A DNA stretch of 64,000 nucleotides from Paraglaciecola sp. MB-3u-78 (GTDB taxonomy: Bacteria > Pseudomonadota > Gammaproteobacteria > Enterobacterales > Alteromonadaceae). The stretch spans positions 496,001 through 560,000 of the forward strand of contig NZ_PJCF01000004.1 of NCBI RefSeq assembly GCF_002835935.1, read 5' to 3'. Shown piece after piece: positions 22,606 through 25,813 of the stretch. The position numbers and the translations under genes are program-made. The notes below the pieces were generated by a model that saw nothing but the letters and a program-made list of their open reading frames with translations, had not been told where the DNA came from and did no database searches. Every line of letters starts with the position of its first letter. The first letter of the stretch is position 1.

Positions 22606-22978
22606 TTGCCGCCACTCAGGTCTTGTCGCTCTTCACAATTCATCATTTTGAACAGGGAAAACATGTATGTACATGGCTGGATAAACTACTTTGGGATCGC
22701 CAATTGTTATCAACGCTGTGTCGAATTGGATCACTGGAACAGGCGCAGAGTGAGAATCGCCTATTGGCGACAGTGGCGTAAGCCCCGCACCAAAGTAAGA
22801 AACTTAATGAGATTAGGTATACGTTTACAAGCTGCGGTTGCGTGTGGCATTACCAGTAAAGGGCGTGGGGTAGTGCGAAAACTCCTGAGATCAATCAAGC
22901 CTTATCCTTGATTACTTAAAATCCGAAGGGCTTTACTCATTACGTGATGGTTGGATTGCGCTTCATTATCCTAAGTGA
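22606..22978 (+). pseudogene. Group II intron-encoded protein, C-terminal fragment
   Basis: Reads HGWINYFGIANCYQRCVELD, then NRRRVRIAYWRQWRKPRTKV and RNLMRLGI, which is the maturase (domain X) end of LtrA-type proteins. After a frameshift it ends GLYSLRDGWIALHYPK, another family hallmark. The reverse transcriptase part is missing, so the intron cannot move by itself. Confidence 0.85.
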
Positions 22979-23046
22979 AACGCCCTGTGAGGAGCCGCAT
23001 GCAGTGTGTTGTGGGGGCTGAGGATTAGAGCCCCTTGGCTACCGGA
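22979..23046 (+). mobile_element. 3' ribozyme end (domains V-VI) of group II intron
   Basis: The segment right after the maturase stop (CGCCCTGTGAGGAGCCGCATG and on to GGCTACCGGATT) has the look of the 3' catalytic domains of a bacterial group II intron. The exact 3' splice boundary is uncertain by several bases. It overlaps the 3' end of the next, opposite-strand gene. Confidence 0.6.
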
Positions 23047-23324
23047 TTATGTGAATAATGCACCAATTGAGAAAGCTTCTCGTGCAGACCTACAATTTTT
23101 TGAGCGCAATGCTCAGCATCAATTTCACTTGGAGCTTCATTTTTAGTCAGTGAATTAATTATCTCAAAGTACTCTTTACCAAGCTCTTTAGGTATATCAG
23201 TGCCGACCGATATATGCAGCAAATGGCTATTAATCGCATTTTTTAATCGGCTCTGCATTGAGCCTGGGCCAACTAGATTCATAATAGCCATATGTAATTT
23301 TTCCATTCCATAAATATATGACAT
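23025..23324 (-). CDS. Small protein of unknown function, 3' end runs into intron
   Basis: 99 residues; I do not recognise the family. It opens MSYIYGMEKLHMAIMNLVGP and is mostly helical. A very strong ribosome binding site (AGGAGG) lies eight bases before the ATG, so it is probably a real gene. Its last few codons (VAKGL) lie within the sequence assigned to the group II intron end, so the original C terminus may have been replaced when the intron inserted. Confidence 0.65.
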   Translation of the reverse strand: MSYIYGMEKLHMAIMNLVGPGSMQSRLKNAINSHLLHISVGTDIPKELGKEYFEIINSLTKNEAPSEIDAEHCAQKIVGLHEKLSQLVHYSHNPVAKGL

Positions 23325-23498: not shown

Positions 23499-23549
23499 AT
23501 GTATAGACGCACTAAGAGTATAGGTAAAATAAAACGTCATTTTTCCTAA
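23499..23549 (+). CDS. Possible 16-codon micro-ORF
   Basis: ATG preceded by a consensus AGGAGGT at good spacing, encoding the basic peptide MYRRTKSIGKIKRHFS. The signal is the ribosome binding site plus the operator-like palindrome, not the peptide itself. It could be a leader peptide or the broken start of a lost gene. Confidence 0.3.
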   Translation: MYRRTKSIGKIKRHFS

Positions 23550-24127
23550 AATCAGAATACATGATGCCTCATATTTTCCATATTGACATCTATTTTATAT
23601 TCTTAAGGGAGTGAAAGTTGGCTATTTTTCGTCTATTAATCAACTGTTTTCACATAATTCAGAATTTAGAACAAGCGCTTCCCGCTGTTGTGCAAACCAG
23701 CTCTGAATATTGTTTATTATGATGAACGGCTTTTTTTCAAACAAACTTATCTGAGGTGGTGTTAGATTTTCGCCGTTAGATGCTTGCTTTCAGCGCGTAC
23801 TTGGTATCTAAACGGTTAGAGAAACTTATCCTCCCACCGTCCTCTCGCTCATTGCCGTCAGTCAAATTTGATTATTCGTATGATGATTTTTCGCTCAATA
23901 TAGTCTGATAGTTTGAATTCTCTTACGTCCGCTTTAGGTCGTTAGCTGCCCTTTTGGGCTGCGAACTAGACTGACAAATTATCGCGAAAATCAGTTTAAC
24001 TGAAGTGACTCCGAATGATGGGTATTGGCACATTTGAGCCGAATAGATAAAGGCAGAGCTACGCAGCATCTTCCCGCGCGGCGGCGGCCTTCTGTACGAC
24101 TTATTTTTTGTCTACAGCCACAAAAAG
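23550..24127. other. Intergenic accessory stretch
   Basis: No gene is supported. The interval 23890-23941 (CGCTCAATATAGTCTGATAG and onward) recurs imperfectly at 24327-24376, on the other side of the 100-bp duplication, so the area is built of repeats. Confidence 0.5.
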
Positions 24128-24326
24128 AAATATCGGGGTCAGAACAAGATTAAATAGCCATAAATAATTTAGTTATCTAAAAACCAATTTCGCCTCTCAC
24201 AATGGCTTAATCATATGTCTGATTTATAAATATCGGGGTCAGAACAAGATTAAATAGCCATAAATAATTTAGTTATCTAAAAACCAATTTCGCCTCTCAC
24301 AATGGCTTAATCATATGTCTGATTTA
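24128..24326. repeat. Two tandem copies of a 100-bp unit
   Basis: The unit beginning TATCGGGGTCAGAACAAGAT occurs at 24131 and again at 24231 with no mismatch seen across about 96 bases. Motifs of the type CGGGGTCAGAACAAGATTAA are often seen near REP-associated tyrosine transposases (my recollection), but no such gene is here. Confidence 0.9.
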
Positions 24327-24558: not shown

Positions 24559-24571
24559 GTGACACTGTCAC
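24559..24571. promoter_or_regulatory. matS: matS site overlapping the stop codon of the matP-like gene
   Basis: GTGACACTGTCAC fits the published matS consensus GTGACRNYGTCAC at every position. The gene's TGA stop lies inside it. Confidence 0.8.
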
Positions 24572-24987
24572 AGATTAATATTTTGGCTATTTATGGACGG
24601 TGGGCAAGCTTCTTTACTACGAATATCGATAAGCATGACAAGATAGTCCTTTATATTCATATCTTCGGCTGCTGCAAGATATTTTAAATCAAGGTATGTT
24701 TCGCGCGGTAACTCGACAGAAAAGGAAGCATGTTTACGCCTGGATTTCTTTTTGCGTAGCGCCGCTCGTAAAACGTTTAGCTGTTTTTCATTTAGGTGCT
24801 TCTTACACCATGAGTCTAGATTAGTAGCTAGGGAGTCATCCTGCTTTATAGAAATGAATGACGAAGTGATGATTTTTTTCAGTTCGTAATATTCGACATG
24901 TGCAAAATAAAAGGGGTCGTTTTTCAACTTACTCTGAATATATGACCACGCATGTACCTTGTTTTCGTCTGTGATTGTAAATCGCAT
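24568..24987 (-). CDS. matP: MatP-like macrodomain Ter protein (ribbon-helix-helix)
   Basis: 139 residues. The C-terminal part, LDSWCKKHLNEKQLNVLRAA, followed by a basic KKKSRRK linker and FSVELPRETYLDLKYLAAAE...YLVMLI, lines up with E. coli MatP (GWIDKHMNPELVNRMK..., then its ribbon-helix-helix). MatP binds matS sites to organise the chromosome terminus and delay its segregation. Two perfect matS sites flank the gene, one 18 bp upstream of the start and one over the stop, which strongly supports the call. The tail after the ribbon-helix-helix is short and lacks the coiled coil that E. coli MatP uses for tetramers and ZapB contact. Whether this is the cell's only MatP or a paralogue cannot be told. 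Confidence 0.75.
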   Translation of the reverse strand: MRFTITDENKVHAWSYIQSKLKNDPFYFAHVEYYELKKIITSSFISIKQDDSLATNLDSWCKKHLNEKQLNVLRAALRKKKSRRKHASFSVELPRETYLDLKYLAAAEDMNIKDYLVMLIDIRSKEACPPSINSQNINL

Positions 24988-25005
24988 TAGCCCATCCCAT
25001 AAAAT

Positions 25006-25018
25006 GTGACAGTGTCAC
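25006..25018. promoter_or_regulatory. matS: matS site upstream of the matP-like gene
   Basis: GTGACAGTGTCAC matches GTGACRNYGTCAC perfectly. It lies 18 bp before the start codon, where a bound protein would block transcription or translation initiation, so autorepression is likely. Confidence 0.8.
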
Positions 25019-25241
25019 GGTATATTTAACGAAGCAGATTGTGCGTCGGTCACGTACCTTTTTCTTCCCCATAAAAAATCATTTGCTTTTAGACGATCAG
25101 TATTTCATCGGGATGCTACACAAGAATCAAACTCTTTCTTGGTTTTTAACATTAGCCGCTTCCTTGATTGGCTAAAATCCATTATGTAATTAAAGACCAT
25201 GAAATGAATTTTTGCATGGTGCGGGTAGGCGGTTTAAATCT

Positions 25242-25736: not shown

Positions 25737-25813
25737 TGGTACAACCGAGTGGACTCGAACCACCGACCCCTACCATGTCAAGGTAGTGCTCTAACCAGCT
25801 GAGCTACGGTTGT
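25737..25813 (-). tRNA. tRNA-Val(GAC)
   Basis: 77 nt with encoded CCA. The acceptor stem pairs ACAACCG with CGGTTGT. The D-arm is GCTCAGCTGGTTAGAGC, the anticodon stem-loop CTACC-TTGACAT-GGTAG (anticodon GAC) and the T-arm carries GGTTCGAGTCC. It closely matches the E. coli tRNA-Val(GAC) layout. Confidence 0.97.

Follow-up and report, generated by a model that had tools for sequence, protein, structure and literature searches.

In the present study, we found that a short gene of Paraglaciecola sp. MB-3u-78 is framed by two matS-type palindromes, and we propose, with a probability of roughly two in three, that it belongs to the MatP superfamily as an accessory member spread by horizontal transfer, and that its product putatively binds the framing palindromes and thereby acts as an autorepressor. 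What was read from the sequence is the frame and its recurrence in diverged relatives, the homology to MatP, the plasmid or recombinase context of the relatives, the patchy distribution, and the absence both of canonical matP and of a terminus marked by matS. The window, that is, the whole 64-kb stretch of DNA analysed, contains exactly two perfect GTGACRNYGTCAC (matS) sites, GTGACACTGTCAC at 24559-24571 and GTGACAGTGTCAC at 25006-25018, and our scan agreed with the original prediction that two such sites, and no third in the window, frame a MatP-like gene. This gene occupies 24568..24987 on the minus strand, stop codon included, and encodes 139 amino acids. The coordinates also confirmed that one palindrome lies over the stop codon, as it contains the TGA, and that the other, which we propose as the operator, ends 18 bp short of the start codon, so that the gene has a site at its own promoter. 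Measured to their centres, the sites are at -25 relative to the ATG and at +2 relative to the stop codon end, and there is one upstream site only. The two are close together, as had been noted, but the gap of 435 bp given earlier was measured as 434 bp. With equal base use, about 0.015 perfect matS sites are expected arithmetically per 64 kb, and two sites within 460 bp are therefore above chance.

The sister genomes align from approximately the tRNA-Val(GAC) gene rightward (25737..25813, minus strand), a neighbour found conserved in these alignments, and the MatP-like gene was not covered among the matches listed. Window positions 22666-23049 and 23516-24130 are dispersed repeats, of which this genome and sister genomes contain several copies. 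In addition, a stretch of about 100 bp is directly repeated near positions 24129 and 24230.

Judged by its amino acid sequence, the window protein is a relative of MatP, and the resemblance of the single sequence is real but weak. The Pfam MatP model gave 15.4 bits (E 0.026) and the NCBIfam MatP model gave 18.7 bits (E 0.0014), and the respective cut-offs of 27 and 165 were not reached. Profile A1 matched MatP in the PDB with E 2e-5, and the structure model of the protein, which was of moderate confidence (pLDDT 71, pTM 0.42), retrieved MatP-matS structures at the top of a Foldseek search. These results bear out the alignment with MatP that had been noticed at the outset; the HMM search and structure prediction proposed as its check matched the N-terminal domain and the ribbon-helix-helix (RHH) of MatP, below the curated cut-offs. 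The order of the two parts, the MatP N-terminal domain followed by the RHH, is that of canonical MatP. At the level of alignment columns, W60, R78 and R83, candidate DNA-reading residues of the alpha4/beta1 type, are invariant in 14 MatP-like and MatP proteins. The protein falls outside the canonical MatP clade. In alignment A2, the canonical C-terminal stretch (coiled coil, tetramers and ZapB) had no counterpart in the window protein, and the absence of the coiled coil, as originally predicted, is thus probable.

A second MatP-like copy, 46% identical to the window copy, was found at C6:83836-84246. Two of its sites precede the ATG, with centres at -61 and -26, and a third is centred 2 bp past the stop codon; two paralogues at this distance thus keep perfect sites in the same places, which speaks for the proposed reading. 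Contig C6 (148 kb) is plasmid-like, with F-type conjugation genes, ParA/ParB and a replicase-primase; its RepA-like protein was matched in 142 plasmid records, and the RepA-like gene lies 1.6 kb from the MatP-like copy. Two more diverged relatives, both found by protein similarity, have the same three-site frame in variant letters. In genome G060, the protein is about 30% identical to the window protein, the sites are at -60, -26 and -3 with different spacer letters, and the gene adjoins a resolvase and a RecD-like helicase. The G060 protein (L031:7253-7882) has 209 aa, and its extra C-terminal part weakly matches an Xre/MbcA/ParS antitoxin family (NCBIfam E 9.6e-5, below cut-off). The other relative, on plasmid pB of Spartinivicinus ruber, was obtained by tblastn with the G752 protein described below (E 9e-3) and checked by profile; its sites are GTTACCGTGTAAC (-54), GTGACCGTGTAAC (-19) and GTTACACGGTAAC (+10 past the stop).

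In addition, we searched 395 family genomes for matS pairs alone. Four genomes matched and the reversed control gave none; the matches were C6, G060, G752 and G184. The G752 pair precedes a previously unseen MatP-like gene, 50% identical to that of the window, with a third site 2 bp past its stop, an adjacent resolvase gene and two phage-integrase-family genes within about 8 kb. At the G184 pair (L086:1501-1544), no MatP-like gene was found in the 40 kb fetched; a helicase gene of RecD type, resembling that of G060, is about 0.9 kb away, and a nearby recombinase-type gene is G060-like too. In G094 (L035:1423-1803), a MatP-like frame stands behind GTTACCTGTCAC and GTGACAGGTAAC, which are half-site pairs with a 2-bp spacer, 24 bp apart. 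In the diverged relatives, the frame usually comprises a pair of sites ahead of the start codon and a single one at the stop. The upstream site is centred -19 to -26 from the ATG in all seven framed or paired loci, three of which were found via the site pattern, and a site lies -3 to +10 from the stop end in 5/9 accessory loci. MatP-type half-site palindromes stand upstream in six of the nine RHH-bearing accessory loci, five of which have them at the stop too; without G752, which was found by its sites, the counts are 5/8 and 4/8. Such sites were absent at the remaining three loci (Algicola, the Dongshaea plasmid and G355). Site and protein seem to vary together, since GTTACNNNGTAAC is a variant site reported for the MatP of another species in the available part of one account (PMC8669397).

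The distribution of the gene is patchy. Among the 22 genomes of the genus, it occurs in this one alone, in two copies, and in none of the 21 sister genomes, which is not the stable single-copy chromosomal inheritance of canonical MatP. Across the family, a MatP-like gene was found in 5/295 genomes at E <=0.01, and two of the five (G004 and G147) look false. Other relatives were found on plasmids of Spartinivicinus and Dongshaea. We take the chromosomal copy in the window to be a paralogue that was probably captured.

Canonical matP loci were examined for the same arrangement. The motif GTTAC-N3-GTCAC lies 11-29 bp before the ATG in 20 of the 26 loci and GTTAC-N3-GTAAC takes its place in two further ones, while 4/26 are without a site; T stands at position 3 in all 22 sites. 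In E. coli K-12, GTTACACGGTAAC lies 12 bp before matP. At these same loci, 20 sites with <=2 mismatches to matS fall in 1,248 upstream positions vs 25 in 85,338 positions elsewhere, and with <=1 mismatch the counts are 14 upstream vs 3 elsewhere. Because the GTTAC-N3-GTCAC motif is conserved before the ATG in so many loci, these results suggest that canonical matP may itself be autoregulated. With a weaker hybrid operator of this kind, canonical MatP would occupy its sites on the chromosome first and switch off its own gene only afterwards.

For the window gene, the autoregulation proposed at the beginning is judged likely, as the sites frame the gene and the upstream placement recurs. A dimer would be expected to read the site via helix alpha4 of the N-terminal domain together with the ribbon strand; in the accessible text of a study of MatP, alpha4 and beta1 enter the DNA groove (PMC8669397). 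DNA binding, repression and bridging remain putative activities of the window protein. The proximal operator would lie near the expected transcription start, and in the plasmid or mobile copies, where the second operator is 30-35 bp upstream, a -10-like hexamer would be enclosed by a bound dimer on either side. Such a hexamer (>=4/6) was found within the 22 nt before the proximal site in 22/30 canonical and accessory loci vs 34% of random windows, and it falls between the two sites in the six loci that have two. This is the geometry of a predicted autorepressor. These 22 do not include the copy in the window, for which the best candidate is the weak AAATAT at 25022..25027 on the minus strand, with three of six matches and under the four-of-six threshold; a sigma-70 scan gave no promoter pair on the gene strand at the window or C6 operators. 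The palindrome over the stop codon may serve to stop read-through, or it may act together with the sites at the promoter. A road-block seems likelier than a stable loop, in our inference, because E. coli MatP showed no looping in a loop assay, according to the part of the report at hand (PMC8053113), and the window protein is without the tail held to make tetramers.

We also considered whether the gene is the true MatP of this lineage and organises the terminus through its matS sites. The sites are perfect matS, and the contig of the locus also has a dif-like site, 186 kb away, so that the predicted proximity to the chromosome terminus stood. A terminus marked by matS was not seen, however. 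The clustering of matS around dif that had been expected in a full-genome scan was contradicted: the 6.48-Mb draft genome has just nine perfect sites (reversed-pattern control, 1), and five of them frame the two MatP-like genes of the window and C6. Two others (C6:139361 and C8:39437) lie in copies of one 378-bp repeat, 84% identical, and the remaining two lie within an outer-membrane efflux-type frame and within a frame beside transposases, these functions being assigned by eye. In the 21 sister genomes, the number of perfect sites per genome ranges from 0 to 4 (mean 1.9). One-mismatch sites number 68 genome-wide vs 45 in the control, which is in favour of a terminus role; among the sites listed on contig C1, 12 occur over 975 kb. 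The 400-kb surroundings of the dif-like site contain nine of these, against about six expected from the genome average, and we found no clear excess near dif. In four of five relatives tried, thrS lies about 400-479 kb from the dif-like site (the fifth, G014, had no dif match), and the terminus-proximal position of the window locus is inherited gene order and not matS marking. The search for a second, full-length matP gave no canonical gene over the cut-off in this genome or in 196 family genomes, though it did give the MatP-like gene of the plasmid-like contig. Since the sites are few and do not cluster at dif, the gene occurs in one of 22 genus genomes and canonical matP in 0/196 family genomes, the Ter-macrodomain reading fails; the missing C-terminal stretch also speaks against it, and we regard it as highly improbable. 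A second dif-like site, which differs in its central region, was observed at G000:C12:921188-921215, about 10 kb from a contig end, and perhaps belongs to an Xer-using element or a second replicon.

Another explanation is that the framed gene serves mainly replicon maintenance, its sites forming a small centromere-like or bridging locus, with autoregulation secondary. The RepA-like gene near the C6 copy, the conjugation genes of that contig and the relatives on Spartinivicinus and Dongshaea plasmids fit such a role, but C6 already has ParA/ParB genes of its own, just three sites stand at the gene, one paralogue is chromosomal and the upstream site is positioned as in canonical matP operators; we consider this explanation unlikely. 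The protein could also be an unrelated RHH regulator, for example an antitoxin-type repressor, with an operator that is matS-like by chance. A Pfam CopG-antitoxin hint (E 0.094), the Arc/CopG-type RHH structures that follow MatP in the fold search and the antitoxin-like end of the G060 relative point in that direction. Against this, the match takes in the MatP N-terminal domain too, while the small CopG/Arc-type structures align with the model at about residues 83-139 only; in NCBIfam, MatP ranks first for 6/10 accessory or phage relatives scanned and among the listed matches for G060; and the site is identical to matS and placed as before canonical matP. A chance resemblance is thus very doubtful, and an accessory, self-repressing MatP relative remains our preferred reading.

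CopG/Arc-type plasmid RHH proteins are autorepressors of their own promoters. The window gene resembles them in its RHH fold and in the palindromic operators proposed at its own promoter, but its product has an additional N-terminal domain and its site is matS. With the MatP/matS Ter system of E. coli, Vibrio and relatives, it has in common the N-terminal helical domain with RHH, the 13-bp matS and a site shortly before the gene. Unlike that system, the window protein is far below the cut-offs, in a separate clade and without the canonical C-terminal stretch, and its gene is patchy, mobile, without a site cluster at dif and framed by its own sites, including one at the stop codon. In the accessible portion of another report, matS is described on large Enterobacteriaceae plasmids (PMC11724359); matS is thus on extrachromosomal replicons in both cases, but there the host supplies MatP, whereas here the plasmid-like contig has a MatP relative of its own, and the search of 196 genomes of this family gave no canonical matP.

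MatP, matS, matS on large plasmids and plasmid RHH autoregulators are known already, and the mobile MatP branch, its self-framing sites and the conserved operator of canonical matP are apparently new, as no description of them was met in the literature searched. MatP is known for organising the chromosome terminus, and a review, in the part available, describes it as without effect on Ter gene expression (PMC3116907). The only consistent sites of the mobile branch frame its own gene and a conserved matS-like site precedes canonical matP; self-regulation may therefore go back far in this family, and the origin of the Ter macrodomain becomes open to testing. More tentatively, and in our view with the odds against it, MatP/matS may have originated as a self-regulating module carried by mobile elements, in which matS was first an own-gene operator and the Ter macrodomain a later use. 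The plasmid and phage branches would then keep the self-framing, including the stop site, canonical matP would keep the old operator as GTTAC-N3-GTCAC, and in the mobile branch the framed gene may, in addition, fold the surrounding replicon or serve as a mark on it. Our results also show plasmids with a MatP relative of their own where the family has no canonical matP, and the window protein, a small protein with a MatP-type DNA reader and without the canonical tail, would be useful for separating DNA recognition from the bridging and divisome roles.

Two viral contigs (L080:2752-3105, plus strand, and L076:2598-2951, minus strand) encode 117-aa proteins without RHH, in which the resemblance to MatP is confined to the end of its N-terminal domain (E 2.6e-4 and 6.9e-4 by profile; hhalign probability 84 over 33 columns). 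Short relatives of these proteins on two Halomonas plasmids are without paired matS-type sites; the viral genes themselves have such sites at -51 and -19.
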